Below, in pieces: positions 4,287 to 23,430 of a DNA stretch of 27,129 nucleotides (position 1 is the stretch's first letter; every line of letters begins with the position of its first letter). Source of the DNA: a virus; the IMG/VR virus record IMGVR_UViG_3300030688_000098, positions 1-27,129 of that record; one strand, written 5' to 3'. The position numbers and the translations under genes were made by a program. The notes under the pieces are model-generated. The model saw nothing but the letters and a program-made list of their open reading frames with translations, did no database searches and was not told the DNA's origin.

Positions 4287-5207
4287 TTAAGTGAGAGAGG
4301 CAATACCAGTAACCTTAGCAACTGAGGCAACGTTACCAATTTCAGCACCCTGATCAGCCCATGAATACCATTCGAGAATATTAGCTTCACGCTTCATTTC
4401 CTGTTGAACATCACCCAGGATAAAGTTAGAACCTAAAAATTCAGGCATTGCAATGGCATAGATACTATCATCAGGCCATACGCTATTAGCGGTAGTGGAG
4501 TTAATCGAAGTGATAACTTCATAACCTAAGAATGTCTTTTCCGCAGCAACGCCATTCAGCGCAATACGTCCAACATTCTCATAACCAATCTTATCAGGTT
4601 CGAGCTTAGCCAGGTCCAGCCAAGTTGATTCTGTCATAATAAGGCGAGCAACTCTACGCCGTTTACCAAGCACCTGACGAACCGCTGTAATAACTGCATT
4701 CTTAAAGTTATCTTTTACGGCACCAGCAGTAGCAGCAGAGGTATTACCGGAAGCGGCTACGGAAGCATCAAGTCTAATCTTAAAGAGAGCATCAAGCTGT
4801 TCCTGCATATCCAGTACGAAGTTGTTATTCACAACATCCATAAGAGGATAACGCATTGTCATTAATTCTTCACGGGTCTTCTTAAAGTGCTGAGTTTCAA
4901 TCTTGGTAAAGTAAACTTCATACTTTCTGCCTTCCATAAAGTTAGCAGAACCCTTACCACGGAAGCCAAGAGTGAAAGCCTTAGAATCGGGCTCAATCTC
5001 AACGCGCTTCAGAGGCCAGTCATTAGTAGTATTACGTTCAATCTGTGCTTCGGTAAGTACTACAGGAGGAATAGCGCGATTTAATACGCTAGTCTCACGA
5101 AGGCGATCACGAATAAAATCCTCAGTAAGAGCGGCTACCTTCTCCATACCGGAAGCTGATTTTCCGGTAAATACATCCCAAAGCTGGGAAGCCATCATAT
5201 TACTCAT
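4287..5207 (-). CDS. Major capsid protein (HK97-fold type)
   Basis: A 306-residue protein with a strong ribosome binding site (TAGGAGATTTTAATTATG). The base composition is visibly richer in G+C than its neighbours, as expected for a highly expressed gene. Likely HK97-fold features are an N-terminal helical arm with DFIRDRLRETSVLNRAIPP, an E-loop-like stretch (VEIEPDSKAFTLGFRGKG), a long spine-helix-like segment (VNNNFVLDMQEQLDALFKIRLD), and a P-domain/A-domain-like region with KNAVITAVRQVLGKRRRVARLIMTES split around it. Residues 21-25 are MEKVA followed by ALTEDF, which fits the motif proposed below as the prohead protease site; cleavage there would remove a 25-residue N-terminal peptide. Identity rests on size, operon place and sequence pattern. 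Confidence 0.78.
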   Translation of the reverse strand: MSNMMASQLWDVFTGKSASGMEKVAALTEDFIRDRLRETSVLNRAIPPVVLTEAQIERNTTNDWPLKRVEIEPDSKAFTLGFRGKGSANFMEGRKYEVYFTKIETQHFKKTREELMTMRYPLMDVVNNNFVLDMQEQLDALFKIRLDASVAASGNTSAATAGAVKDNFKNAVITAVRQVLGKRRRVARLIMTESTWLDLAKLEPDKIGYENVGRIALNGVAAEKTFLGYEVITSINSTTANSVWPDDSIYAIAMPEFLGSNFILGDVQQEMKREANILEWYSWADQGAEIGNVASVAKVTGIASLT

Positions 5208-5240
5208 AATTAAAATCTCCTATTTAATTTTTAATTTATC

Positions 5241-5675
5241 TTAAAAGGTTACGATACGATAAACCGAAGTGCTAATACCCTGAGCATCATTAGCAATGCT
5301 GTAACTATCAGCTACCTGACCTTTAACCAAATTAGCATCGCCAGGAAGACTAGCTGCAATAAGTAAACCGGCAGTAGCACCAGTGCCAGGCTTAAGATAA
5401 GAACCAATGGCAGGTGATCCAGAAACCTGATCAGTTTCAGCTTCCATGACACCATAAACTACGGTATAAGAACCGGAAGTCTGACTTAACAGATCTTCAA
5501 AGATGAAACCAATTGAAGATCCAAGACCTACGGTGCTATTATCAGATTTAGCAATAGTATTAGAAGTACCAGTTAACTGAACAACCGTACCTTTAACCAG
5601 TCCGGCGGGGCCAGAACGGCTAGTGATCATTACTGAGTGAGAACCTTCCTGAAGGCCACTGAGAATGTTAAACAT
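5241..5675 (-). CDS. Probable capsid decoration / head-stabilising protein
   Basis: A 144-residue protein just upstream of the major capsid gene in the operon, with AAGGAGATATAAAAT before the ATG. It is almost wholly beta-rich, with many Gly, Ser, Thr and Val residues and few charges (GPAGLVKGTVVQLTGT, SYTVVYGVMEAETDQVSGSP, IGSYLKPGTGATAGLLIAAS). Its G+C content is visibly raised, as in the capsid gene, suggesting high expression. It lacks the K-x-A motif, as expected for a protein added to the outside of the shell after proteolysis. The decoration role is inferred from location, size and composition. Confidence 0.55.
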   Translation of the reverse strand: MFNILSGLQEGSHSVMITSRSGPAGLVKGTVVQLTGTSNTIAKSDNSTVGLGSSIGFIFEDLLSQTSGSYTVVYGVMEAETDQVSGSPAIGSYLKPGTGATAGLLIAASLPGDANLVKGQVADSYSIANDAQGISTSVYRIVTF

Positions 5676-5700
5676 ATTTTATATCTCCTTGATATAATGG

Positions 5701-6084
5701 TTAATTTTCGTCAAGTCCTAATTCACCCATTAACGCAGCTTGCTTTTCCATGAATGAATCAATTGCTTTAGAGCCTGAAATTGGAATTACTTTTTCTTCT
5801 GTATATACGGAACCAAAAGATCTATTCTGTCTCATAATAGAGGCCATTTTTACCATGGCATCGATACTTTCACCTGATTCGCTCGCAGTCTTAATCATAT
5901 CAGAAGCCTGATTAAAAGACACGCCTAATTTAACGGCCACTTCCTCCGCTTTCTTGGACATATCTTCGTCTTTTCCCTTAGACTGAATCTGAGCAGTTAA
6001 TTCTTGAATAATAGCAGCAGATTCATCTAAAAGCTGTAAAGCATCCTGAAGCGGATCTGATTGACCTTGCTGAACTGGGTCCAT
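5701..6084 (-). CDS. Prohead core/scaffold-like protein with four K-x-A motifs
   Basis: A 127-residue mainly helical acidic protein. It contains four hydrophobic-x-K-x-A motifs: MSKKA-E, MIKTA-S, MVKMA-S and MEKQA-A, each beginning with Met. An N-terminal coiled-coil-like helix (LQDALQLLDESAAIIQELTAQIQ) precedes them. The ribosome binding site GAGG lies inside the end of the upstream gene, one base away, so translation is likely coupled. No family is recognised. Position between protease and capsid genes, together with the motif density, suggests a prohead core component cut during head maturation. Confidence 0.6.
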   Translation of the reverse strand: MDPVQQGQSDPLQDALQLLDESAAIIQELTAQIQSKGKDEDMSKKAEEVAVKLGVSFNQASDMIKTASESGESIDAMVKMASIMRQNRSFGSVYTEEKVIPISGSKAIDSFMEKQAALMGELGLDEN

Positions 6085-6085
6085 T

Positions 6086-6490
6086 TTAATTTACCTCTTT
6101 AAAAAGTTTAGATCCTCTAGCCGAAACTAACGAAGCTAAAGAGGCTAATTTAATTTGCGTTCCATCAGGTCTTTGAATCATTACTGTGCTATTACCAGAA
6201 GTAGTAGCTCCTACAGCTTGAGCAGCGGCAGCTTCGGCAGGTTGATCTTCCTGATTAGGCTGCGCATTAGGATCACCTTCTGCTGGAGTCCCACCCTGAG
6301 ATAAAGCAGCTTTAAACTGTTCTACTTTCTGTAAAAAGGCTTGAGCAGTAGTTAAAATATCACCACCACCCTGTTCCTGATTAGATGGAGCATCGGGCGC
6401 ACCATTTTCATCATTAGCTGACTTTTCTAAATCCGAACCAATCTCAGATTCGGCTTCTGCTAAAAGTTTATCAATAAAACTATCACTCAT
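6086..6490 (-). CDS. Acidic low-complexity prohead protein, scaffold-like
   Basis: A 134-residue protein. The N-terminus is acidic (FIDKLLAEAESEIGSDLEKSA), and the middle is probably disordered, rich in Gln, Gly, Pro, Ala and Asn (GGTPAEGDPNAQPNQEDQPA, AEAAAAQAVGATTSGNS). The C-terminus (MIQRPDGTQIKLASLASLVS) looks ordered and carries a weaker IKLA-S version of the motif; the N-terminus has a good one, LEKSA-N. It starts directly after the previous gene's stop, with GGGAG inside that gene. A similar C-terminal helix-turn-helix is often used by scaffolds to bind capsid subunits, but this is inference from composition and place. Confidence 0.6.
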   Translation of the reverse strand: MSDSFIDKLLAEAESEIGSDLEKSANDENGAPDAPSNQEQGGGDILTTAQAFLQKVEQFKAALSQGGTPAEGDPNAQPNQEDQPAEAAAAQAVGATTSGNSTVMIQRPDGTQIKLASLASLVSARGSKLFKEVN

Positions 6491-7063
6491 TTAAGCTCCC
6501 ACCATCGCATTTAATTCATCGGAAAGAGCAGTAGCAGTTTCCTCATCAATAGATTTATTTAAAAAAGCAGCTTGTAATTCTACTTTAACCATTTTAATTA
6601 ATTCCTGAATAGCATCAGGATATTGTTCACCTACAGCTTTAACAAATGGAATAATTTTATTAGATTGACCAGCCTCGCAAGCTTCACTTACCGCATTTTT
6701 AATATCCTGAGCCCGCATACCACCTGGAGTATTAGTTGGGTCCATAGTTTCATTAGTTTTATTACCAGTAGCAGGAGTACTATCTATTTTAACATTTTCA
6801 TCTTCTACAGCAGCTTGTTCTGCACTTTCCTCATTAGGATTATCGGTATTTTCAACCTCTTCCTTTTCTTCTTTAGGTTCTTTCTTTTCAGATAATTCTT
6901 CGGCAATCTTTTCTAAGACAAGCTGTGCTGTATAATTTGCGGTCTTTTCTAACAAAGGAAAGATAGCATCTATTACTTTATTAACCATTTCATCTTGAGC
7001 TTCAGACGCGAGTTTTTGCAAGACCTCTGGCTCTGTTTTTTCTATAAATTCTTTGAGATCCAT
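6491..7063 (-). CDS. Acidic scaffold-like prohead protein
   Basis: A 190-residue protein. The N-terminal ~60 residues are helical with three K-x-A motifs (LQKLA-S, LEKTA-N, LEKIA-E). Residues ~58-110 are a highly acidic, Glu/Lys/Asn-rich, probably disordered stretch. The C-terminal ~75 residues look like a compact helical domain (RAQDIKNAVSEACEAGQSNK, FVKAVGEQYPDAIQELIKMV). Its ATG shares one base with the stop codon of the protease gene (TAATG), which implies translational coupling. In T4-type head modules the scaffold gene lies between protease and capsid; this one fits that place and composition. The scaffold call is inference. Confidence 0.6.
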   Translation of the reverse strand: MDLKEFIEKTEPEVLQKLASEAQDEMVNKVIDAIFPLLEKTANYTAQLVLEKIAEELSEKKEPKEEKEEVENTDNPNEESAEQAAVEDENVKIDSTPATGNKTNETMDPTNTPGGMRAQDIKNAVSEACEAGQSNKIIPFVKAVGEQYPDAIQELIKMVKVELQAAFLNKSIDEETATALSDELNAMVGA

Positions 7064-8787
7064 TATTTTTTATCCTTAAAAATTTTGCTTACGCCAGTTG
7101 TTAAATCATTAGATACATTCTTAATAGCTTTATAACTATTCTTTGCACCAGCCATTCCCATTGCGGCACCAACAATTCCCATTTTACCAGGGTTGTTAGC
7201 AATAGTTCTACCTAAAACTCCAACAGGATATCCTTGTTGCATTTTATTTTGGTAGTGGGCACTAGCAATATATGGAGCTGCAAAACCAATAGCTCCTTTA
7301 GTTAATAATCCTTTGCCTGAATTCCAGAAACCAGGAACTGCGGCAGCTTGTTTATTTAACTCTTCATTAGTAAATGGATTATTACTAATATATTTATCAG
7401 ACTCTTTATTGTCTCTAATCATTTGAGAAATACCAGAACCTAATAAACCATAAGCGCTAAATTTACTTTCAGCGTTATTACGATATAATAAATATAATGC
7501 AGAAAGAATAGATCCAAGACCTATAGTTCTAGTTATTTCGGCTTCTTTACGTAAACCTTTTTCAGTATTGTAAATTCTATCTCCAACACATCCAATAGAT
7601 CTTTCATCTAATATATGAGTAGGAATTTCATTAGATAATTTAACGGCTTTATGTGTAATATCAATATCAGCTAAAGAATGCAATTCTTCATCTAATCCTT
7701 TTACGTCAGGATTTTTAATTACTGCTTTAGTATGATAAAATTCTTGAGCTAAATCATCACGATTAGAATTCTTTAATAAAATATAAGCAAACTCATTTGG
7801 CTTAGCAATAATACCGGCATGAGTTAAAGCACCCCAAGCTTCAGAAGGTTTAAGTTTAGCTAATTCTTCCATTAATTTATGTGGAAGATCTCTTTCAGTA
7901 TTACATACTTTAGCTATTGCACCTTCAATATGAGTTGGCATTTCTTTGTAAATGGTAGAATGTTTTTCTATTTCTTCTGCCTCTTTATCAAATTGTCCAA
8001 TATCATAATAATCAGCAAGATCTAAACTAAATTCAAAATCTGTACTAGCAACTTTTTCTAATTGCATACCGGCTAAAAATGCAGGTCGATTTACTTTACT
8101 AATATCAAAAAATCTAGGAAATAAATTTTCAGCATAAATTTTACGACCATCATCTAAAATTTTACCCATTTGAAATTTAAGATGAGGACAATATTTCATA
8201 ATAGAAGTATTATGTTGATGACAAATAGAACAACGATCCCATGGAAGTTTAGCTCCCATAGAAACTGCAACTAATTGATTTCTTTTAATCATTTCAGCAG
8301 TTTCAGGATCTTTTTTATTATCTACTCCAATAATAAGAAGTACTGTATGCATTTTTGGATTCCAAATAGCATTTGGAACCTCACCATAAATTTGATCTCC
8401 ACGCTCTGGTTTGTTATGATGATGATGAAACCAGCCAGCGTCACTAAATGTTTGATAACGTAACTTAGCTTTTATTCTATTATTTAATCTTTCATCTTTA
8501 GGTGAGACTTCATTCCAAACAGGAGTATTTTGTAATCCTAACAATGAATCATATGGAAAATAATCATGATTTTTATTATCAGACCATGTTTCACCATCAC
8601 CCATAGCAGTTACTAACATATAGCTATGATCTTTTTTACGTTTTAAATTTTTAATAGCCTCATCAACTTCTTTTGGTAAATCTCTTTTAGAAGCAGTTTT
8701 AATAAAATCATTTTCATATCTATCTTCTAATGAGATAGATATTTGTTGATCTTCTGGAATATTTGATGATTCTATTAATTTATACAT
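7063..8787 (-). CDS. Prohead maturation protease with long multi-site C-terminal extension
   Basis: A 574-residue protein. Residues ~50-245 resemble the prohead protease of large myoviruses (T4 gp21-like serine protease group): SYMLVTAMGDG, a His cluster at 121-124 followed by NKPERGDQIYGEV, HTVLLIIGVDN (147-157), LVAVSMGAK with candidate nucleophile Ser176, a Cys/His cluster (C186, C189, C200, H202) and FFDISKVNRPAFLA (226-239). The catalytic roles are by analogy. K-x-A motifs lie at 28-32 (FIKTA), 243-247 (LEKVA), 266-270 (FDKEA), 412-416 (LRKEA) and 477-481 (LNKQA). Cutting at the first two would release a ~215-residue core, about the size of T4 gp21. The extension contains glycine-rich hydrophobic segments near 420-435 and 536-548. 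The extension could become separate head proteins. Confidence 0.75.
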   Translation of the reverse strand: MYKLIESSNIPEDQQISISLEDRYENDFIKTASKRDLPKEVDEAIKNLKRKKDHSYMLVTAMGDGETWSDNKNHDYFPYDSLLGLQNTPVWNEVSPKDERLNNRIKAKLRYQTFSDAGWFHHHHNKPERGDQIYGEVPNAIWNPKMHTVLLIIGVDNKKDPETAEMIKRNQLVAVSMGAKLPWDRCSICHQHNTSIMKYCPHLKFQMGKILDDGRKIYAENLFPRFFDISKVNRPAFLAGMQLEKVASTDFEFSLDLADYYDIGQFDKEAEEIEKHSTIYKEMPTHIEGAIAKVCNTERDLPHKLMEELAKLKPSEAWGALTHAGIIAKPNEFAYILLKNSNRDDLAQEFYHTKAVIKNPDVKGLDEELHSLADIDITHKAVKLSNEIPTHILDERSIGCVGDRIYNTEKGLRKEAEITRTIGLGSILSALYLLYRNNAESKFSAYGLLGSGISQMIRDNKESDKYISNNPFTNEELNKQAAAVPGFWNSGKGLLTKGAIGFAAPYIASAHYQNKMQQGYPVGVLGRTIANNPGKMGIVGAAMGMAGAKNSYKAIKNVSNDLTTGVSKIFKDKK

Positions 8788-8789
8788 TA

Positions 8790-9005
8790 TTATTTCTTTT
8801 TAAATTTTTCAGGATGATTCATAAAATCTTTCTCTTTACGTCTATGATCTAAGTAATGTCCAAGTAATGGAGCAGGTAACATTCCAAATGCAGCTAATGG
8901 ATAAGTTAATAACTTACCTCTTGCCCGTCTTCCAAGCCATCTATTATCTATATATTCACTATCTAATTCTTTTGAGTCTTTAAATGCTAATTTAATTAAA
9001 CTCAT
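8790..9005 (-). CDS. Small internal head protein with MSLIKLA leader
   Basis: A 71-residue basic protein. It begins MSLIKLA-F, a leader shared with the gene starting at 9975 and nearly shared with the gene starting at 9628. After a charged stretch (DSEYIDNRWLGRRARGK) comes a hydrophobic segment (LLTYPLAAFGMLPAPLLG) and a strongly basic tail (HRRKEKDFMNHPEKFKKK). The stop is two bases before the protease start. The ribosome binding site is weak. By analogy with T4 internal proteins, which carry a cleaved N-terminal capsid-targeting sequence, I infer that MSLIKLA targets the protein into the prohead and is removed there. Confidence 0.6.
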   Translation of the reverse strand: MSLIKLAFKDSKELDSEYIDNRWLGRRARGKLLTYPLAAFGMLPAPLLGHYLDHRRKEKDFMNHPEKFKKK

Positions 9006-9006
9006 A

Positions 9007-9360
9007 TTATTTCACTTTTAAAGCCATAGATTTAAGTTTATTAGCAAATGGAATAACTTCTGCTATAGGAGTAGGTTTCTTTAAGGAATTAACAATGCCA
9101 GATTTAACAGCATCATCTAATCTTAACGGTCCAGTCTTTTTTAATCCCTGTAAACGCTGTCTCATTAATCCTAATTTAGAAGGATCTTTTTTAGCAGCAG
9201 CGGCAGCATCGGTAGCAAGATTATAATGTAATCCCTGTTCAGGATTCATAGTCTTACTAATGGCCATCTGCATAGGATTAACCGCACCATCTTTTTCAAG
9301 AATAGATGCAAGTTTAAATAATCCTAAATCATCATATTTTAATGCAATTTCTTTAATCAT
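9007..9360 (-). CDS. Small internal head protein with LFKLA site, unknown
   Basis: A 117-residue basic protein. Residues 14-18 are LFKLA followed by S, matching the shared motif near the N-terminus, as in its neighbours. The segment around it (EIALKYDDLGLFKLASILEK) is probably an amphipathic helix. The rest is Lys/Ala-rich with no catalytic motif (MQMAISKTMNPEQGLHYNLA, AAAAAKKDPSKLGLMRQRLQ). Its start overlaps the end of the upstream gene by eight bases, indicating coupling. Role unknown; I infer a virion-internal protein from the motif and the neighbours. Confidence 0.6.
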   Translation of the reverse strand: MIKEIALKYDDLGLFKLASILEKDGAVNPMQMAISKTMNPEQGLHYNLATDAAAAAKKDPSKLGLMRQRLQGLKKTGPLRLDDAVKSGIVNSLKKPTPIAEVIPFANKLKSMALKVK

Positions 9361-9628
9361 TCTTTTTGCCAGTTAAAGCTTTTGCCGCAGCGCCAACACC
9401 TAAAGCAGCCCCTCCATAAAGAGCAGCACTAGGAGCTAAAGATTTTAAGCCAGATTTAGTAGTAGCAAAATGTTTAAGTTTATCAGCAGCAGTAGGAAGT
9501 CTGCGTAATGAAGTTAAGGTACTATTCTCAAGGCGATGAGCCTCAGATTTAATAGCAGTACCTTTAGCAGCATTAACTACTGCATCTTTAATCCCTGAAA
9601 GATTAAAAGCAAGTTTTACGATAGACAT
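9353..9628 (-). CDS. Small internal head protein with MSIVKLA leader
   Basis: A 91-residue basic protein. It starts MSIVKLA-F, followed by a Lys/Ala/Ser/Thr-rich helical region (KDAVVNAAKGTAIKSEAHRL). It ends in a glycine/alanine-rich hydrophobic segment (SAALYGGAALGVGAAAKAL) and a short basic tail (TGKKND). The start has GGAGAAATTATA upstream and shares a base with the stop of the preceding gene. The leader, small size and glycine-zipper-like segment are shared with neighbouring genes, suggesting one functional class, probably packaged head proteins. Confidence 0.62.
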   Translation of the reverse strand: MSIVKLAFNLSGIKDAVVNAAKGTAIKSEAHRLENSTLTSLRRLPTAADKLKHFATTKSGLKSLAPSAALYGGAALGVGAAAKALTGKKND

Positions 9629-9975
9629 TATAATTTCTCCACATTCTTTTTATGACGAAAAGCTAGACTTCCAGCGCCAATGGTAGTTCCTAATCCAACT
9701 CCACCGATAATCTTTTCTTTTAATTTATGAGATTTAATTTCAGATTCATGACCTTTAATCTGATCTCTTAATTTACGAATCTTCTTACCTAAATCACTAT
9801 TCATTTTACGTTGTTTTAAATAAGCAGCACCTAAATCACCATTCTTGGCACCTTCATAAGCGCCCTGAATAGCTTTTTTAGTTGCATTTCTAGAATTTTT
9901 AACATCAGCTTCTACGGCACTAAATAAACCTCTAATAGCTTTACCAGTTCGCATAGCTAATTTAATTAAACTCAT
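9628..9975 (-). CDS. Small internal head protein with MSLIKLA leader
   Basis: A 115-residue basic protein when started at the ATG at 9975. I chose this start because it has GAGGATCAC at the right distance and yields the leader MSLIKLA-M shared with neighbours; a longer frame to 10026 would run through a strong hairpin and has no ribosome binding site. A Lys/Asp/Arg-rich helical middle (KIRKLRDQIKGHESEIKSHK) may form a coiled coil. A glycine-rich hydrophobic segment (KIIGGVGLGTTIGAGSLAF) and a basic tail (RHKKNVEKL) close the protein. Probably packaged into the head, by analogy with its neighbours. Confidence 0.65.
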   Translation of the reverse strand: MSLIKLAMRTGKAIRGLFSAVEADVKNSRNATKKAIQGAYEGAKNGDLGAAYLKQRKMNSDLGKKIRKLRDQIKGHESEIKSHKLKEKIIGGVGLGTTIGAGSLAFRHKKNVEKL

Positions 9976-9988
9976 GTGATCCTCTAGA

Positions 9989-10040
9989 TAATAATTGCTG
10001 AAATGCCTATCAAATAGACTAGGCATTTCCGTAATTATTA
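9989..10040. repeat. Long inverted repeat / hairpin between head genes
   Basis: Arms 9989-10009 and 10020-10040 are reverse complements at 19 of 21 positions, with a 10-base spacer. The right arm includes the stop codon of the gene starting at 10715. On the - strand no T-run follows, so it is not a typical rho-independent terminator; it may be an mRNA-stabilising or processing structure that sets different levels for the genes on each side. Confidence 0.85.
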
Positions 10041-10715
10041 CTTATCGTGAAGTTTCTTAGCTCCATAACCAAGAGCAGCTAAAGCGGCAGCGGCACCGCC
10101 AGCACCCATTGCGGCTTTAGGATGAGCTTTAATTAAAGCCTTTAAAGCACTAGCTTTCTGACCAGCATAATCACCGGCTTTCTTACCAGCTTCTTTGGCT
10201 TTCTCAGCATATTCCTTAGCCTTATCTTTAGCACTAGCATCCTTCTCTACTTCTTCCTCAGCCATCTTATCTAACTGAGTATGAACCTCATTGGCCTCTT
10301 CAGTAAGTTCATTGGAAATATTAATAAGAGTTTCAGCCATCTTATTAAGAGTTTCGTCTTCCTTAACCTCATCAGCAATCTCAGCATAAACTGAAGCGAT
10401 CTTATTCATATCTTCAGCAATGTCAAGAGCTTCTTCTAAAGCTGAACCATCTTCAGAAGCAGTCTTGGTAAGGCAAGCTCCCATTCTTTCGCCAAGCTGA
10501 TAAGTATCAGCAGCAAGAGCTTTCAGATTATCATTCTCTAACTCTTCAGCGATCTTATACATTTCCTCGCCAATAGCAATCAGAGAACGCGAATCATCCA
10601 GAACGCCAATTTCACCAGCTACCTTTTCAAGGGCCTGTTCCTCGGCAGTCTTTTCAACTTCAGAAGCTGTCTTTTCTACTTCTTCAGTGAGTTTATCAAT
10701 TAAAAGCTTCGACAT
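10038..10715 (-). CDS. Prohead core protein, acidic, nine K-x-A motifs
   Basis: A 225-residue, very acidic, helical protein with AGGAGACATTTAA before the ATG and visibly raised G+C. It carries nine hydrophobic-x-K-x-A motifs, about one per 20 residues through residue ~160: VEKTA twice, LEKVA, MYKIA, LTKTA, MNKIA, LNKMA, LDKMA and VEKDA, mostly followed by S or E. The last ~65 residues switch to Lys/Ala-rich, then to a glycine/alanine hydrophobic segment (AAMGAGGAAAALAALGYGA) and KKLHDK. If the motif is a protease site, this protein would be reduced to small peptides like the T4 core protein gp22, leaving the basic C-terminal part. No homologue is recognised; the core role is inferred. Confidence 0.6.
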   Translation of the reverse strand: MSKLLIDKLTEEVEKTASEVEKTAEEQALEKVAGEIGVLDDSRSLIAIGEEMYKIAEELENDNLKALAADTYQLGERMGACLTKTASEDGSALEEALDIAEDMNKIASVYAEIADEVKEDETLNKMAETLINISNELTEEANEVHTQLDKMAEEEVEKDASAKDKAKEYAEKAKEAGKKAGDYAGQKASALKALIKAHPKAAMGAGGAAAALAALGYGAKKLHDK

Positions 10716-10745
10716 TTAAATGTCTCCTATGTGTGAGTTTGGTTA

Positions 10746-11945
10746 CTATTCAGGTTTGCCATTATAATAAGTATTTACTACAACGGGTTTAACATCTTTC
10801 TTTTTAAATGCATCAAATCCCTTAGTGAAACTACCAGCCATGTCTAAAATAGAAGGACTATCATTTCTACTGCCACGATCCTGAATTTCACGAAGTTTAC
10901 CAACTGTATTAACATCAACTCCATTAAATGTATCGAATTGACGAATTAATGATGGGGCAACCATTGGATCTAAAGCTAAAGAAGGACTATGCCGCGCAAT
11001 TACATCAAAATAATCTCTAGCATTAGGAATATTACGAATATCAGCATTAGCTTTAGCAATTGTATTAAATGAATCATTTAACTGTCGTTCCTGCATCATT
11101 CTTGAAACGATACCACCAGCGCCTCTAGCAGCAGCAATACCTACTCCAACAGAACCTAACGCTAAAGCTGGAACTAAATTTTCACCTAATGCTTGTATAA
11201 CCTTATCAAATACGCCAGCTTCTTTAGTAACTTCAGCGGCTTTATTCATAATAAATTTACCAGTACTATCAGGCACTTTTTTCATCCCCTCCTTAAATGA
11301 TCCAATATAACTAGCCGGCATTAAGCCTCTTTTAATTGGAGCTTCGGCAACATAACCACCAACCTTACCAACTACTTTAGCAGAACCTTTTAATGCTCCA
11401 CCAGCTAAACCAGAAATGATTCCCGCACGTTTTTCAACTAAATAGTCAATTACTTTTTCTTTATGAGCAATTTTATCCATATCTTTCTTTAATGCGGGAA
11501 CTTCACTATAAGCTAACTTTTCTAAAGAAGGATTTTCATAAACTAAACGTCTATAATAAGAAGCTACTTTAGTTAATTCTTCTCCAATTTCTTTTCTACA
11601 TTTATCAATAGCAAGTTGATATTCAAGAGTATCAACCTGATTTTCTTCTGCTACTTTTTCTAAATCACTATATTCCGTAAATTTAATAGCAGCAGTTTTT
11701 TCTACTTTATCTAATAAACCGATTTTTTCTTTAACTATATTAAATTGTGCTACATCAAAAATCTGATCACCAGTAGATGCAAATTTCTGTAAATAACAAG
11801 TTTTATTGGACTCTTCTACTAATCTTTTAGTTTGCTCAATATTTAACTTATTTTCAGCAGCATACTTAGCTATAGATTCATTCATATCTACGTTTGACTT
11901 GAGATATTTCGAAGCTATTTTATTTGCTGTAAGTTCTAAATCCAT
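10746..11945 (-). CDS. Multi-site internal head protein, unknown
   Basis: A 399-residue protein from the ATG at 11945; a TTG at 11957 would add four residues (MDPP). Neither start has a clear ribosome binding site. The N-terminal ~180 residues are helical and carry K-x-A motifs at ~15-30-residue intervals (IAKYA, LQKFA, VEKTA, LEKVA, LTKVA, LEKLA, MDKIA, VEKRA), with two more later (MNKAA, VTKEA). Two glycine-rich hydrophobic segments follow (IISGLAGGALKGSAKVVGKV and LVPALALGSVGVGIAAARGA). The C-terminal ~110 residues look globular (NARDYFDVIARHSPSLALDP, FDTFNGVDVNTVGKLREIQD). It sits between terminase and the core-like protein, where a portal would often be found, but does not look like a portal. 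I infer a packaged protein with a degradable N-terminal half. Confidence 0.6.
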   Translation of the reverse strand: MDLELTANKIASKYLKSNVDMNESIAKYAAENKLNIEQTKRLVEESNKTCYLQKFASTGDQIFDVAQFNIVKEKIGLLDKVEKTAAIKFTEYSDLEKVAEENQVDTLEYQLAIDKCRKEIGEELTKVASYYRRLVYENPSLEKLAYSEVPALKKDMDKIAHKEKVIDYLVEKRAGIISGLAGGALKGSAKVVGKVGGYVAEAPIKRGLMPASYIGSFKEGMKKVPDSTGKFIMNKAAEVTKEAGVFDKVIQALGENLVPALALGSVGVGIAAARGAGGIVSRMMQERQLNDSFNTIAKANADIRNIPNARDYFDVIARHSPSLALDPMVAPSLIRQFDTFNGVDVNTVGKLREIQDRGSRNDSPSILDMAGSFTKGFDAFKKKDVKPVVVNTYYNGKPE

Positions 11946-11996
11946 AGGAGGGTCCAATTCAAGATACTTTTATTGTCTCAACAAATTCGTCTAGTG

Positions 11997-13574
11997 TCAA
12001 TCATTTTCGTTCATATTCACACTAACATCAGAGTCACCTGGATCCAATCGCGTACTAATTATCTGATCAGTACGTTTCATCCAGGTGAGTCGTGCATATA
12101 AAAGACTATGAAACGCATCATCGGGTTGACTATGAATATATCTCATCTGTCTTAATCTATCAGAATATTCAGAATTAATATTACAATAATCTTTTCCAAT
12201 ATCTTCGAATTCTGACCATTGATAAGGTTCTACTTTTTTACTTTTAATAGCATTAAATAAATCTGTCATAACTTCAGTTCTATTAGTCACATAAGTATTA
12301 CCTTGGTCATCCCATGCTAAAGCTTTTTTAATAATACTATGTCTATAGGTTACATATACAACATGCTTAGGTAATAATCCACGCATTCTCGAATTTAAAT
12401 CAAAACCAAATCCAAAGTCTGCTCCAACAAATGAAACATGAAAATCCATTAAAGTTTTAGTAATAGAAAATACTAAGTTCTCAGGTTCTGCTTCTCTACC
12501 AATATATCTTTTGGCAAAGATAATTTTAAATTTATTAGCAATGGTATCAAAATATCCAATTGTTAAAATTGTAAATCCAGTATTACCACCACCCCAATCT
12601 ATTCCAGCATATAATTCTACACCTGAAATACTGGTTGGCATTATGTTCCACATGGGTCTATCTAGACTGCAAGATGATATTAACTGATCTCTGGATAGGG
12701 GTTTTTGGCCGTTGTCGTAGGATTCGCCAAAAGTTTCATTCATTAATGCGCCTGTGTCAAAATTGCGCATTTTAAAATACAAATCCCTCCAATCAATATC
12801 TTCAGTTGGAAGAATAATATAAGGTAACCTAAACCCTTGAATTTCAGACTGTTGTGCAGATACCCAACATCCATATCTGGTATGAATTTCTTTTTTACAT
12901 TTTCTACACCATAAACCTGGCTTGTCTAATAATACAACTTCTATTCCTAATTTATTATAATATCCACAATGCATACATTTTACATGCCATTCATTCTGTG
13001 AAGATTTTTCCCATTTTTTTTGTATATTATTATCTAGAGTTTTAGGAGTTCCAGCATACATATATTTGGCATTTTTACGTTTCTGAGAACAAGCTTCGAT
13101 TATCGGTGCCACATTTTCTAACTGGTCTTGTATCTCATCATGATACTGATAATCGATCGTCAATCCCCGAATGCTATCTGCATCGTGAAATGCAGATCGA
13201 AAATATAAAGTGGATAGGTTTTTTAAACGCTTTTCTTCTATTCTAAAACCTTTGACTCCCGGATAAAAAGTTTTATTTAAAAGTTGAGATGTTTCAAATA
13301 TTTCATCTATTTTCTTACGTGAGTAGACCCCACTTTGCTTGAATGTAGGTGCAACATACAATGAACTAGTATATGGATTTAAACATGCATTAGCAATTTG
13401 ATTTCCACTCATTGTAGTAGATTTTTCAGTCTGTCTAGCTGCAAGCAGAAGAGTTCTTTTGGCTTGATTATTTATAATTGGAAAAATATATGGTCTATCT
13501 ACAAATCTCCATAACCTTCCATCAAGTCTCATAACTTTTTGTATGAAGTCTGAATTTGAAATTTTAATTGACAC
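11997..13574 (-). CDS. terL: Terminase large subunit (packaging ATPase-nuclease)
   Basis: A 525-residue protein that pumps DNA into the prohead and cuts it. The N-terminal ATPase has a Walker A-like AARQTEKS (45-52), with Glu in place of the usual Gly before Lys, and a Walker B IDYQYHDE (140-147) with D146/E147. A coupling-type AGTP (174-177) follows. A four-Cys zinc ribbon (C200, C203, C223, C226) is inserted between the ATPase and nuclease domains. The RNase H-like nuclease has D326 (GIDWGGG), D386 (VGADFG) and D485/D486 (PDDAFH). The start is GTG with AAGGA seven bases upstream; the nearby ATG is out of frame. The GTG lies inside a 12-bp palindrome. It is the first gene of the leftward head operon, divergent from the HNH gene. 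Confidence 0.93.
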   Translation of the reverse strand: MSIKISNSDFIQKVMRLDGRLWRFVDRPYIFPIINNQAKRTLLLAARQTEKSTTMSGNQIANACLNPYTSSLYVAPTFKQSGVYSRKKIDEIFETSQLLNKTFYPGVKGFRIEEKRLKNLSTLYFRSAFHDADSIRGLTIDYQYHDEIQDQLENVAPIIEACSQKRKNAKYMYAGTPKTLDNNIQKKWEKSSQNEWHVKCMHCGYYNKLGIEVVLLDKPGLWCRKCKKEIHTRYGCWVSAQQSEIQGFRLPYIILPTEDIDWRDLYFKMRNFDTGALMNETFGESYDNGQKPLSRDQLISSCSLDRPMWNIMPTSISGVELYAGIDWGGGNTGFTILTIGYFDTIANKFKIIFAKRYIGREAEPENLVFSITKTLMDFHVSFVGADFGFGFDLNSRMRGLLPKHVVYVTYRHSIIKKALAWDDQGNTYVTNRTEVMTDLFNAIKSKKVEPYQWSEFEDIGKDYCNINSEYSDRLRQMRYIHSQPDDAFHSLLYARLTWMKRTDQIISTRLDPGDSDVSVNMNEND

Positions 13575-13580
13575 GTGTCA
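13569..13580. promoter_or_regulatory. 12-bp perfect palindrome over terminase start codon
   Basis: TGACACGTGTCA is a perfect palindrome spanning the GTG start of the terminase gene, in the 41-base gap between divergent genes. It could be an operator or a translation-level element. Its function is not shown by the sequence. Confidence 0.5.
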
Positions 13581-13615
13581 TTCCTTATGATACCATTTTT
13601 TATGGAGAGTGAAAA

Positions 13616-14551
13616 ATGTCTAGACATCCCAACGATTGGCAGGGTCAAGTATATCATAATTGTGAAGTAATAAAACCTTATGATGAAACAAAACTTGGAG
13701 GCCACGATATGTGGTATCTTAAATGTTTTTGTGGAAAAATTTTTATCACTCAACCTTCTGAAGTTAAACGAGGAAAAACTGTTTCTTGTGGATGTTATAG
13801 ACGAGAAGCATCAACTATAAGAATGAATAAACAAATTGAAAATAATAATGGTCTTAGTATAGGAACTAAAAAAATAAATTATAGAAATTATATATCTGAA
13901 AATAATCTTAAAATAATTGATCCGGTTATTCCAGAAAAAGATTCTGGTATGGATTATTGGAATGTATTATGTCCAAAATGTAATCAAATATTTCAAACAA
14001 AACCACGAGATGTAATTAATAGTAAAACTAAATCATGTAAATGTTCTCAATATAACAATATGATTGCCGCTAAAAAAGCAAGAGATGAAAGAATTCGTTT
14101 AGAAAATGGAGGAATAAGATTAACCGATTTAAATAACTCTTTGAGAATGGGTATATGTAATCCTATTAAACAATTAATTTTTAAATTAGATAATTATACA
14201 TGTAATTTATGTTATGGTAATAAAAATATGTATTTTAACATGCATCATATAGTTCCAATAAAATTAAACTCTGATTTTAAATTTGATAAAAAAGAAGATT
14301 TTTATTCGGTTTATGATATTAATAATTTAATTACATTATGTGAAGAATGCCATAGGAAAGATGCCCATAATGGAAATGGTAGATGTGAACTGAATAAAGA
14401 AGTTCAAAAAGAATTACAGCTCTTAACATCAATGCGTTATGTTCCAAAAGATATTCAAGAAGAATATGATCAAATAGTTAAAAATATAATTGAACCATGG
14501 ATTGAAGATTATTTAAATAACCGCGCAAAACAAGCCACTTTTTTGTTATAA
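13616..14551 (+). CDS. HNH endonuclease with two N-terminal zinc modules (homing type)
   Basis: A 311-residue protein with GGAGAG before the ATG. The HNH domain is at ~190-250: C196/C199 (CNLC), H210/H211 (NMHHIVPI), N237 (NNLITL) and C242/C245/H246 (CEECHR), with the metal-binding Cys pairs of the zinc-HNH subclass. The N-terminal half contains two similar DNA-binding-like modules, each with a Cys-x-Cys or Cys-x2-Cys pair, a TQP/TKP segment and a second Cys-x-Cys pair: residues 37-60 (C37, C39, C58, C60) and 119-143 (C119, C122, C141, C143). The coding sequence is more AT-rich than its neighbours. Free-standing HNH genes beside terminase are common in phages and usually spread as homing endonucleases; a link to packaging-site cutting is possible but not shown. 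Confidence 0.88.
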   Translation: MSRHPNDWQGQVYHNCEVIKPYDETKLGGHDMWYLKCFCGKIFITQPSEVKRGKTVSCGCYRREASTIRMNKQIENNNGLSIGTKKINYRNYISENNLKIIDPVIPEKDSGMDYWNVLCPKCNQIFQTKPRDVINSKTKSCKCSQYNNMIAAKKARDERIRLENGGIRLTDLNNSLRMGICNPIKQLIFKLDNYTCNLCYGNKNMYFNMHHIVPIKLNSDFKFDKKEDFYSVYDINNLITLCEECHRKDAHNGNGRCELNKEVQKELQLLTSMRYVPKDIQEEYDQIVKNIIEPWIEDYLNNRAKQATFLL

Positions 14552-15282: not shown

Positions 15283-15666
15283 ATGAGCGAATCTAATGGA
15301 TCACAAATATTTATAAAAGAACAAAAAGATAAGTATGGAAAATTACTGTTTATAGAAAAAGTAATAAAACCCGATATGAAGGGTGAGCCGGATATCTTTG
15401 CGATATATAAATCAATGCCCGTATATGCTGAAGCTAAATTAATTAATACTTTTAGCTATCGGAACCTTTATCCATTTAAGGAATTACAGCTAGATACCTT
15501 AGAGGAGCGAGCTAAAAGTGGAGCTATGTGTATTGGGTTACTTTATTTAGAAAAACAGATAAGATATTTAATGTATTATGATTTAGAGGAATTTGTAGAT
15601 TGGAATAAAGCAATTCCATTTAGTTGGGAAGGCTTACGGGAGAAATGGATTGAATGTCTAAAATAA
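15283..15666 (+). CDS. PD-(D/E)xK nuclease, RecU / VRR-NUC-like (possible Holliday junction resolvase)
   Basis: A 127-residue protein from the ATG at 15283. A longer frame to a GTG at 15247 would start inside the terminator hairpin and is unlikely. The nuclease signature is GEPDIFAIYKSMPVYAEAK: Asp in PDI and the E-x-K pair in AEAK. A FSYRNLYPFKELQLDTLEER stretch follows, with the Gln typical of RecU-type resolvases, then AMCIGLLYLEKQIRYLMYYD. The family cleaves branched DNA in recombination and replication. No ribosome binding site is evident, and the only promoter candidate is a poor extended -10 (TGCTACAAT at 15233-15241), so expression may depend on read-through. It overlaps the next gene by 13 bases. 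Confidence 0.7.
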   Translation: MSESNGSQIFIKEQKDKYGKLLFIEKVIKPDMKGEPDIFAIYKSMPVYAEAKLINTFSYRNLYPFKELQLDTLEERAKSGAMCIGLLYLEKQIRYLMYYDLEEFVDWNKAIPFSWEGLREKWIECLK

Positions 15667-17414
15667 ATATATCCATGGATGAAAAACGTCCAGATCAATT
15701 TTTAATAGAAACCGATGCGGACGTTTCATTATTTGGATGGGAAACTAAATCTAAATTCTGTTCCTATTATATGAACATGTCCCCATGGAATTTATCGGAT
15801 TTATTTACGACTAATAAGACAAAACTTGGACACACTATTATTTATGATGACAGAGTTTTACCAATTATCGAAAATCTACGTAATGAAATTAAATTGTACA
15901 AAGATGCAGCAAGTATTAAAAATTTACCTATAGATGATATTAATGATATGTGGGAGGAACAAAGCTTCCCTTATTTATTTCCTAAAATCGAAGCTGATAT
16001 GCACCAGAAACGTATGGTGCTTTGGGCATTAAAAGCAAAGAAGGTTGGATGTTTTGCTGAGCAAGGTACTGGTAAAACTCCAATAGGTATATTCATTTTA
16101 GGTAAATTATTACATGATGGTTTAATTCGTAAACCAATAGTATTTGCACCTTTATCGTTATTAAATGATAATGTATGGTTTAAAGATTTGCGTCAATTTT
16201 CCGATTTTAAACCATTCAATCTACGAGATCCTGACAATTTATTTTGCGATGGTCAAATATCATTCATTAATTATGATAAACTGCAAAATTGGTGTTTTGA
16301 AAAAACTAAAACTGGAGAACATAGTTATATCAAAGATAATTTTTTCGAAATGCAAAAATTTGATGCAATTTACTATGATGAATCTTCTTCATTAAAAGGA
16401 CATTCATCTTATAGAACTCGTGCATTTATAAAAATAAGTAAATATGCAAAATATATATCTCTAGCATCAGGAACTGTTGCTCCAAATTCAATTTTCCAAA
16501 TCTGGGGACAAATGAAGGCTTTAGGATCAGTTCTAGGAGATTCATATAGTCAATTTGAATCTAGATATGGTGCTCAAAGATCAATTGGTCCAGTTATGAA
16601 ATATTTCCCAAGATATAACGCAGAACAAGAAATTCGTAAGCGCATAGATCTTGTTTCTTACTTTATTAAACGCTCAGACGTTTACGACCTCCCTCTTAGG
16701 AGCTTCGTTACTATAAACGTAGATCTTCATGAAGATCATATGAAGCTTTATAAAAAGATAGAGAAAGATTATATAAGTGCCGTACAAGGTTTTGGAGATG
16801 ATGGAGAAATAATAGATGGTAAATTAAGAATTCAACATGAAGTTGCGGTCAGAATTCGTTTAATGCAGATTATGAATGGGTTCACGGTAGTAGAAGATAA
16901 AAATGGTAAGATACATCGAGTATCTTTACCATGGAATGCTAAGCTAGAAGCATTAGATAACTTTATTACTAAGTTCTTAGCTGAATCTGATGACAATAAC
17001 ATTATAGTATGGGCAACCTTTAGGTGGGAAATCGAAACAATCTATAATAAGTATAAGGATATAGCTTCTTATATTTATGGTGGTTTAAATGATACTAAAC
17101 GCAATGAATTACTAGATAGATGGCTAAATGATAAAAGTTGTAGAATTATGGTAGCCATGCCACAAGCAGCCATGTTCGGCCATACGTGGTTAAAATCTAA
17201 TGCATCATTCTACTATTCATGTACTGAAAATTATGAGTTTTATGCACAGTCGCATGATAGAAACTATAGACGTGGTTTAACAAGAGAAGTTACTGAGTAT
17301 AAATTAGTCACATCAAACACTATTGAAAGTAAAATATGGGCAGCAGTAAAATCACGTAAGAAACTTGATAAATTCCTAAAAGATTATTATCTAGAAAAAG
17401 CAAAATCACTTTAA
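15654..17414 (+). CDS. SNF2-type superfamily 2 helicase / DNA translocase
   Basis: A 586-residue protein. Motif I is AEQGTGKT (135-142), Ia FAPLSLL (164-170), motif II YYDESSS (240-246, DESS in place of DEAH), and motif III ASGTVAPN (271-278). The second RecA-like domain includes NIIVWATFRWEIETI, YGGL, RIMVAMPQAAMFGHTWL and motif VI with AQSHDRNYRRG. The order and the late SKIWAAVKSRKK helix are typical of compact phage SNF2 helicases, which move along duplex DNA in replication or repair. The N-terminal ~110 residues have no recognised domain. It starts inside the end of the nuclease gene and is followed after 11 bases by the primase gene, so all three are probably co-translated. Confidence 0.9.
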   Translation: MSKINISMDEKRPDQFLIETDADVSLFGWETKSKFCSYYMNMSPWNLSDLFTTNKTKLGHTIIYDDRVLPIIENLRNEIKLYKDAASIKNLPIDDINDMWEEQSFPYLFPKIEADMHQKRMVLWALKAKKVGCFAEQGTGKTPIGIFILGKLLHDGLIRKPIVFAPLSLLNDNVWFKDLRQFSDFKPFNLRDPDNLFCDGQISFINYDKLQNWCFEKTKTGEHSYIKDNFFEMQKFDAIYYDESSSLKGHSSYRTRAFIKISKYAKYISLASGTVAPNSIFQIWGQMKALGSVLGDSYSQFESRYGAQRSIGPVMKYFPRYNAEQEIRKRIDLVSYFIKRSDVYDLPLRSFVTINVDLHEDHMKLYKKIEKDYISAVQGFGDDGEIIDGKLRIQHEVAVRIRLMQIMNGFTVVEDKNGKIHRVSLPWNAKLEALDNFITKFLAESDDNNIIVWATFRWEIETIYNKYKDIASYIYGGLNDTKRNELLDRWLNDKSCRIMVAMPQAAMFGHTWLKSNASFYYSCTENYEFYAQSHDRNYRRGLTREVTEYKLVTSNTIESKIWAAVKSRKKLDKFLKDYYLEKAKSL

Positions 17415-23256: not shown

Positions 23257-23430
23257 ATGTATGATTGGAAAGAAATAGGAAGACTTGCTATCAATATAGA
23301 AGGTTGTAAAAAATGTGAAAAACTTATATCAAACGCTGATCTAGATAAAGAATCTTGGAAAATCCTCTACAATCTAATCAAGGATCAAATAGAACTAAGA
23401 AAGACTAATGATTGCAGCATTAAAGACTAA
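23257..23430 (+). CDS. Small CxxC protein (57 residues), unknown
   Basis: ATG at 23257, ten bases after an AGGA. The frame fills the gap between the transglycosylase and RecD-like genes and overlaps the latter by 23 bases. It begins MYDWKEIGRLAINIEGCKKC; the Cys pair (C17, C20) could be half of a metal site or a redox motif. The rest is helical and charged (DKESWKILYNLIKDQIELRK). No family is recognised. Support comes from the open frame, spacing and gene order. Confidence 0.55.
   Translation: MYDWKEIGRLAINIEGCKKCEKLISNADLDKESWKILYNLIKDQIELRKTNDCSIKD

Follow-up and report, generated by a model that had tools for sequence, protein, structure and literature searches.

Why should nearly every protein of a viral head operon carry the same five-residue motif? 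The question is raised by a 27,129-nucleotide stretch of viral DNA (IMG/VR virus record IMGVR_UViG_3300030688_000098, positions 1 to 27,129; the window, below), in which a minus-strand run of twelve open reading frames (ORFs) at 4287-11957, lying between the large terminase and neck-like genes, is rich in the pattern hydrophobic-x-K-x-A. An earlier note on this DNA, made by eye, had proposed that the motif is the cleavage code of the prohead protease encoded in the same run. We think it very probable that it is the recognition sequence of this protease (ORF 7063-8787), which would cut at the motif. Enrichment of the motif, its concentration in head genes and its conservation at fixed positions are established from the sequences, alongside a protease fold.

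We defined the motif as [LMVIF]-x-K-x-A, took 32 window ORFs as genes and obtained expected counts by shuffling each protein. ORFs came from a simple longest-ORF caller with uncertain start codons, and small ORFs were named decoration, neck or core by guesswork, from where they lie and what they are composed of. The head block (12 ORFs, 2514 aa) holds 38 copies against 6.8 expected, spread over eleven of the twelve ORFs; the exception is the decoration-like ORF at 5241-5675. The remaining 20 ORFs (6320 aa) hold 6 copies against 7.0 expected, namely one in a neck-like ORF, one in the terminase and two each in ORFs 15654-17414 and 23408-25015. The eye count of the earlier note, about 37 copies in eleven head proteins, was thus close, and its limits for the motif block fit; its figure of about three copies elsewhere was a few too low, although the lack of an excess there stands. 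Taken one by one, five ORFs show a clear excess (5701-6084, 6491-7063, 7063-8787, 10038-10715 and 10746-11957). The other six carriers, the capsid protein and small proteins among them, have one copy each, singly not above chance, and the argument for them comes from where the motif lies and from relatives. A named PHROG match below E 0.001 exists for just two of the eleven carriers, the capsid protein and the protease. The features of the block are as follows, with a slash at each predicted cut.

4287-5207, minus strand: major capsid protein (MCP), 306 aa, predicted HK97 fold; phrog_2522 major head protein, E 7e-7; predicted cut after MEKVA (residues 21-25)
5133-5147, minus strand: MCP site MEKVA/A, between predicted propeptide helix 6-13 and N-arm helix 27-39
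5241-5675, minus strand: decoration-like ORF, internal negative control, 0 motif copies; role guessed from position and size
5701-6084, minus strand: 127-aa core-like protein, four sites (MSKKA/E, MIKTA/S, MVKMA/S, MEKQA/A), 4 against 0.29 expected
6086-6490, minus strand: 134-aa acidic core-like protein, one site by motif count (LEKSA/N at 6416-6430)
6491-7063, minus strand: 190-aa acidic core-like protein, three sites (LQKLA/S, LEKTA/N, LEKIA/E), 3 against 0.48 expected
7063-8787, minus strand: prohead protease, 574 aa, six sites of its own, 6 against 1.1 expected; phrog_18299 head maturation protease, E 3.4e-11
8047-8061, minus strand: protease site LEKVA/S at the end of the conserved domain; L243, K245, V246 and A247 invariant in the window, Vibrio phage D69, Salmonella phage Arash and Bacillus phage G
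8182-8232, minus strand: Cys/His-rich insertion of the protease (C-S-I-C...C-x-H), putatively zinc-finger-like
8260-8262, minus strand: candidate catalytic Ser176 of the protease, invariant in 49 of 49
8419-8421, minus strand: His123 of the protease, invariant in 49 of 49 and putatively catalytic
8692-8706, minus strand: protease N-terminal site FIKTA/S, ahead of the catalytic domain; K30 and A32 each kept in 47 of 49 proteases
8790-9005, minus strand: small protein, leader MSLIKLA/F (site 8985-8999)
9007-9360, minus strand: small protein, site LFKLA/S at residues 14-18 by motif count
9353-9628, minus strand: small protein, motif site in leader MSIVKLA/F
9628-10026, minus strand: small protein, leader MSLIKLA/M; the leader begins at the Met in position 18 of the listed ORF, which is probably the real start
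10038-10715, minus strand: 225-aa core-like protein, nine sites, 9 against 1.06 expected
10746-11957, minus strand: 403-aa core-like protein, ten sites, 10 against 1.24 expected; called from a TTG start (the earlier reader's ATG is at 11945); homologues in the head blocks of D69 (153114-154049, 34% identity over 151 aa) and Arash (145210-146136, 28% over 117 aa)
11997-13574, minus strand: large terminase, adjoining the block; phrog_675, E 2e-55; one chance-level motif, 1 against 0.46 expected

The same clustering is found in relatives. Contig G001 (157 kb; also L002) encodes a protease and a terminase identical to those of the window, and in G001, D69 and Arash the carriers gather in the same head block, with 39 copies against 7.0 expected, 36 against 7.0 and 39 against 6.3, respectively. 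When about 2,100 spaced residue pairs were ranked by enrichment for each head block, without bias towards any pair, K-x-A led in D69 and Arash, and in the phage of the window it came second to K-x3-E. A wider set of loci came from a protease alignment, through DNA patterns in which the motif was absent; of the 132 protease relatives found, the 80 best were retained. A separate set for the capsid protein comprised the 80 best of 197 relatives. One protease relative lay in bacterial genome contigs, and a search of plasmids for the protease found no relative. We used 73 of the 80 protease loci, leaving out seven that were partial or came from the same or near-identical phages; 72 of the 73 gave a protease ORF, and 45 representatives below 70% identity were retained. 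Ranked among about 400 hydrophobic-x-X-x-Y patterns, the motif was first in 68 of the 73 loci and in 42 of the 45 representatives, which together hold 1247 copies against 263 expected. The ratio of seen to expected was 3.6-7.9 in each 1-kb bin from -3 to +4 kb of the protease start, falling to 2.5 at 4-5 kb downstream and 1.2-1.5 past 5 kb. A Desulfovibrio assembly contig carries 22 copies in 16 ORFs near the protease, where about 5.5 are expected. Over ten genomes (phage G left out), 363 copies were seen in head blocks against 68.5 expected and 684 in the remainder against 547.3. The enrichment test over this genome and its relatives that the earlier note had suggested has thereby been run, and it returned a head-block excess rather than an equal motif frequency outside the head proteins.

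What does the motif look like when each residue is allowed to vary? We freed one position at a time over the 1247 sites, numbering outwards from a presumed cut between the Ala (P1) and the residue that follows (P1′). A alone among the 20 residues is enriched at P1 (z 44) and K alone at P3 (z 53), where Arg is not enriched within the K-x-A clade. P5 prefers L, M, F and I, and P4 prefers E; at P1′ S, E and A are favoured, as had been noticed by eye, and K, L, I and P are reduced. Proline is depleted at P4, P2, P1′ and P2′ (9, 6, 14 and 23 against 51 expected), and the profile is nearly flat from P3′ on. The pattern looks like the subsites of an enzyme that takes an extended substrate and cuts after Ala. 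Conservation was then tested in the remaining ORFs around the protease, over 2786 directed alignments with identities of 20-70%. The motif K was kept in 65%, compared with 36% for K outside the motif, and the motif A in 68%, compared with 38% (about 1.8-fold in both cases); the x residues were kept in 33% and the P5 class in 81%, against 69% elsewhere. Judged by these alignments, K and A are under selection and the spacer residues are not.

The motif occupies a fixed place in the capsid protein. The window MCP matches phage G gp27 (6wkk) by profile at E 2.7e-15. Its predicted model, compared with 992 chains, reached Z 5 or more with 575, the matches listed being phage shells and encapsulins (best Z 16.8), and on this model the protein has the HK97 fold. 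In an alignment of 38 MCPs (the window, 35 from viral contigs, D69 and Arash), K23 and A25 have zero entropy in all 38, and the adjoining x positions vary. A survey of 72 of the 80 capsid loci gave 56 proteins unique by their last 200 residues; all 56 have K-x-A, 1-6 residues ahead of a conserved [FY][ILV]Rx[KR]xR stretch. P5 is R in 25 of them, L in 17, M in 7, Q in 4 and P, K and I in one each. The predicted MCP cuts of Arash and D69 are LVKEA/G and LTKEA/G. Of the motif as originally formulated, the K-x-A core is therefore invariant, but a hydrophobic P5 is not obligatory in MCPs, where Arg takes its place in 25 of 56.

Both ends of the protease domain also bear the motif. In the predicted model, the N-terminal site falls within a low-confidence stretch (residues 17-32) ahead of the ordered domain (37-248), and the domain-end site reads L[E/Q]KVA in the window, D69 (LQKVA), Arash and phage G. 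For the Arash protease, gp222, the predicted self sites are LTKQA/A and LEKVA/N. Structural comparison with VIA-align placed T4 gp21 closest (5jbl, Z 9.7 over 125 residues), and herpesvirus proteases matched at Z of about 6-9 (VZV 1vzv, Z 9.0 over 113 residues; PRV 4v08, Z 8.3). Foldseek against predicted phage proteins gave significant matches to phage G gp19 (E 2.8e-15) and to annotated prohead proteases. The modelled fold thus resembles that of the T4 gp21/assemblin type. A profile alignment pairs Ser176 with a Ser of T4 gp21, residue 140, but only weakly (E 0.017, probability 2.7). The window capsid gene begins 1.9 kb downstream of the protease gene, which stands beside core and capsid genes.

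The insertion of the protease, a CxxC...CxH element, directly follows the candidate catalytic Ser and is common to phage G gp19 and an Erwinia phage protease. Its residues C186, S187, I188, C189, C200 and H202 are invariant in five of five sequences including the latter; among the 49 proteases aligned (the window and 48 loci), C186 is invariant and C189, C200 and H202 are nearly so.

Are the head blocks enriched in the Glu-ending patterns of better known phages instead? In G001, D69 and Arash, [LI]-x-E (40 seen against 32.2 expected, 48 against 43.2 and 40 against 33.9), A-x-E (26 against 24.3, 30 against 32.9 and 25 against 25.8) and S-x-E (10 against 14.0, 29 against 24.8 and 19 against 15.9) all lie within 200 shuffles. 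The same pair scan on six T4 head proteins put I-x-E first (z 3.9) and L-x-E seventh, in agreement with the known T4 code.

Ten outgroups with more distant proteases, comprising mycobacterial, Gordonia, Rhodococcus, Erwinia, Pseudomonas, Burkholderia and Eggerthella phages with head ORFs hand-picked from the annotation, place K-x-A between rank 20 and rank 310, and its excess there does not go beyond about twofold. We therefore rejected K-x-A as the code of the whole wider protease family. Mycobacteriophages I3 and Myrna hold 5 and 4 copies in their protease proteins against 1.4 expected. In actinobacterial phages hydrophobic-x-R-x-A reaches 93 copies against 44 expected, pooled over seven mutually related phages, and is second among the pooled patterns with H-x-N above it, which is only a hint of an Arg version of the code. 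In the loci with this weak pooled excess, L044-L049 and L051 from mycobacterial, Rhodococcus, Gordonia and Eggerthella phages, the related proteases sit inside very large proteins of 850-1400 aa.

Phage G, an intermediate whose gp19 and gp27 are homologous to the window protease and capsid protein, has the motif in few head proteins besides gp19, which carries 7 copies against 0.73 expected. A 171-aa protein has 3 against 0.17. Among five hand-picked head proteins K-x-A comes first (10 against 2.7), with seven of the ten copies in the protease, and its 13-kb head block holds 14 against 4.9; the genome total is near expectation (201 seen, 167 expected). We lean against counting phage G as a full member of the K-x-A clade.

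In the 45 loci the motif also ends short N-terminal leaders: it falls within about the first 12 residues in 49 of 519 ORFs near the protease, where 7.7 are expected. Farther out on the same strand 11 of 205 ORFs have a leader motif, a count given without an expectation. The leaders are characteristic of each phage, with a MSLIKLA type on nine ORFs of G001, a MIIKLA type on 14 of G009, a MKYFEKxA type on eight of G005 and a NKYLEKIA-like form on six each of G006 and G007; leader-pattern ORFs number eight in phage G (MKRLxKKA-like), three in G011 and one in G008. With the leader removed, homologous pairs among the bearers were 0 of 36 in G001, 0 of 91 in G009, 1 of 28 in G005, 0 of 15 in G006, 0 of 15 in G007 and 3 of 28 in phage G, so that by sequence comparison the same leader of one phage sits on mostly unrelated proteins. 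Leader-bearing ORFs exceed all 200 shuffles in G001 (17 seen, 3.6 expected), G009 (18, 4.7), G006 (10, 2.9) and G008 (12, 3.6) and equal the highest of 200 in phage G (23, 12.1); in G005 (11, 4.3), G007 (7, 2.8) and G011 (10, 5.4) they are above the mean but within the shuffles, and D69, Arash and G010 have no excess over shuffled sequence.

One pair of relatives joins leader and internal site. A tagged 247-aa protein of G001 (MSLIKLA/LVV) corresponds to the C-terminal half of a tagged 429-aa protein of G009 (47.5% identity over 244 aa), and its leader aligns with an internal copy, FEKLA/AII at residue 192 of the longer protein. The alignment places a motif where the relative has its gene start.

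How else could such a motif have arisen? Lys-, Ala- and Glu-rich amphipathic helices in core proteins might produce it as a by-product; several carriers are acidic and rich in Lys and Ala, and K-x3-E is as enriched as K-x-A in the window's phage. The expectations, however, already use each protein's own composition, a single residue is enriched at P1 and at P3, the ten outgroup head blocks lack the enrichment, and the head blocks of the ten genomes part from the rest of those genomes. Given the composition-corrected scans, the single-residue specificity and the outgroup controls, we rejected this account, which we regard as extremely unlikely. Repeated conserved copies in head proteins and tags at the N-termini of cargo would likewise be expected of a docking or head-targeting motif that is bound by scaffold, shell or protease but left uncut, its many copies reflecting multivalent assembly. 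That is in our view quite improbable, since the motif stands at the border of MCP propeptide and N-arm and at both borders of the protease domain, information lies on either side of the Ala with proline avoided up to P2′, and an internal copy matches the gene start of a relative.

A cut at another bond, for example after the Lys, overlaps with the preferred reading and differs from it in the bond alone. In its favour, the motif fixes Lys as well as Ala, and the leaders restrict the residue after Ala little. Cleavage after Lys also occurs in the capsid proteins of HK97 and T5, whose shells are structural neighbours of the capsid model. We nonetheless hold another bond to be unlikely: the restricted position after Ala over the 1247 sites and the loss of information past P2′ are a better fit for a cut after Ala, and the herpesvirus protease, a structural neighbour of the window protease, is assayed on substrates in which P1 is Ala and the next residue Ser (PMC12632753). 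We thus infer cleavage of the motif by the prohead protease, at the bond that follows Ala; the enrichment at the loci, the positions in the MCP and at the protease borders, the conservation of K and A and the lack of Glu-code enrichment all support the motif as a prohead-protease code, as the earlier note had read it.

Several observations weigh against this reading. A 1.8-2.7-fold excess persists 3-8 kb upstream of the protease in the 45 loci, and minus-strand ORFs hold 35 copies against 24 expected. The MCP model is of low confidence around the site (mean pLDDT 53-62 for residues 1-30), and the 56 MCPs include 25 with Arg at P5 and 6 with Gln, Pro or Lys, so recognition would not follow one rigid pattern. 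The C-terminal protease site coincides with a predicted last strand (241-247) rather than a loop. Z scores of 7-9.7 for the protease fold are only modestly above those of unrelated matches (up to 7.0), and Foldseek alone found no significant match in the PDB (best E 0.1; gp21 E 0.36). The T4 control is weak, I-x-E at z 3.9 being barely above the next pairs. In leaders P1′ departs from the S/E/A of the whole site set, with Ala in 12, Glu in 6, Ser in 1 and Phe, Leu and Ile in 4 each of 50. A systematic test for fusions of the G001/G009 kind gave a modest result (22 of 35 within 12 residues against 9.1 expected), and several of the 35 cases are trivial same-site alignments. Phage G has a related protease and a related capsid protein, gp27 (6wkk), yet the latter lacks the motif. 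Finally, the virion proteome of Arash covers motif proteins highly, with gp223 at 100% (PMC10585845), which might mean that these proteins are not degraded or that the preparation was impure. Such coverage can neither show nor exclude cuts, given that the motif itself contains a tryptic site and that 116 proteins are listed; the paper reports coverage, and neither "protease" nor "cleav" occurs in its main text (PMC10585845).

If the motif is the code of the prohead protease, head maturation might proceed as follows. The protease precursor would be made inside the prohead together with the capsid protein, the core proteins and tagged cargo. Once activated, it would free itself at FIKTA/S and LEKVA/S and remove the 25-residue MCP propeptide at MEKVA/A, freeing the N-arm. 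Core proteins would be chopped at up to ten sites each into small peptides able to exit the head, and short leaders such as MSLIKLA would be taken off small internal proteins.

How does this compare with known systems? As with the window protease, the gene of T4 gp21 is a head-operon gene near the capsid gene, and gp21 cuts capsid and core proteins (T4 annotation). Its I/L-x-E code ends in Glu, whereas the code here would end in Ala with Lys at P3. The window protease differs further in a conserved predicted self site near its N-terminus, in the Cys/His insertion and in a long extension at the C-terminal end, where more sites lie. To our knowledge Lys at P3 is not part of the herpesvirus protease rule. 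Herpesvirus assemblin has a Ser-His-His triad, and its main substrate is one scaffold protein, where about ten proteins are predicted for the window protease. The proteases of phiKZ, 201phi2-1 and SPN3US (S/A-x-E) are similar in their many head substrates, short and long propeptides, self-processing and several sites per propeptide, but cut after Glu, not Ala (PMC5694885, PMC10052503). SPN3US gp245 trims itself at the C-terminus but not at the N-terminus (PMC5694885), where for the window protease a conserved site is predicted. The earlier note was right that a specificity of this kind would be a different one: it departs from the Glu-type codes of T4, phiKZ and SPN3US (PMC5694885). In the open-access literature we found no report of a K-x-A code, most subscription papers lying outside the search.

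Were the code confirmed, it would name cut sites, core proteins and, in several phages, cargo of large phages, across a broad and almost uncharacterised group that includes the isolates Arash and D69 and, in part, phage G. Dozens of hypothetical proteins would become predicted internal or injected proteins, including anti-defence candidates found by their tag alone. An Ala-ending specificity would be added to phage head proteases, the T4-like ones described in PMC5694885 and PMC10052503 cutting after Glu, and would bring phage head proteases closer to the herpesvirus protease.

What, then, do the tagged proteins do? The T4 capsid-targeting sequence (CTS) is a short N-terminal leader common to unrelated internal proteins, some of them anti-defence (PMC3012670, PMC12373910). 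The leaders described here, unlike the T4 CTS, are phage-specific and end in K-x-A, and a packaging role for them is putative. A Pfam scan of 30 tagged proteins brought 8 to the curated cut-off, one of these through scattered short repetitive matches only. In G009 a Tad3-type Thoeris inhibitor (PF25185, E 1.2e-35) has the MIIKLA leader (L258:12496-12960, minus strand) and adjoins other MIIKLA-tagged genes; leader and tagged neighbours suggest that this anti-Thoeris protein is packaged and injected. Further matches were two SNF2-like helicases, a DUF5662 protein, two glycine-zipper proteins and a ferritin-like protein in phage G, and a PHROGs search identified a tagged ATP-dependent DNA ligase (phrog_114, E 1.1e-19). 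Most helicase relatives lack a tag, among them Arash gp217, which is 38% identical to the tagged G007 protein. In the virion proteome of Arash, gp217 is represented by 38 unique peptides, in a list of 116 proteins that may include contaminants (PMC10585845). The tagged proteins may be packaged and injected. K-x-A could double as the end of a phage-specific cargo tag, with the tagged proteins (helicases, ligase, glycine-zipper, ferritin-like and Tad3-type proteins) loaded into the head, trimmed and injected with the DNA, and Ala at P1 could be ancestral, with Glu arising later in T4-like phages; we consider this possible, though short of likely.

The eight leader-bearing ORFs of phage G, MKRLxKKA- or MSRLxKxA-like, lie at 11937-12203, 28218-28733, 255160-255879, 255911-256453, 258975-259427, 382868-383200, 435497-435817 and 482110-482637. 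Three of them are mutually homologous and one is ferritin-like; all eight are candidate internal proteins. In G006 a 634-aa tagged protein (49403-51307, minus strand; L239:9403-11307) repeats its own leader internally (NVNKYLEKIAEKK) and contains a HELGH stretch; it also matches a glycine zipper weakly, and its end is weakly DnaJ-like. From its sequence it looks like a polyprotein with internal cut sites.

Each of the eleven scanned genomes also has one to three multi-motif proteins outside the head operon (p under 0.005). A family of about 285 aa with 7-10 copies, 27-76% identical, lies away from the operon in D69 (170872-171723), Arash (174466-175335), G006 (7673), G007 (52101), G008 (60119) and G010 (143758). 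A second family, of about 570-635 aa, is common to G001, G005, G009 and G011, and a third, of about 300-370 aa, to G001, G009 and G011. These families may be extra head proteins, the first perhaps an extra core protein.

Upstream of the Arash head operon lie the RNA polymerase beta and beta-prime genes gp206 and gp216 (L012:3273-7850 and 12621-14441), both among the five most detected proteins of the virion proteome (PMC10585845). In the window, a 311-aa ORF on the plus strand (13616-14551), between the terminase and replication-like genes, has a C-terminal stretch that by eye resembles an HNH endonuclease.

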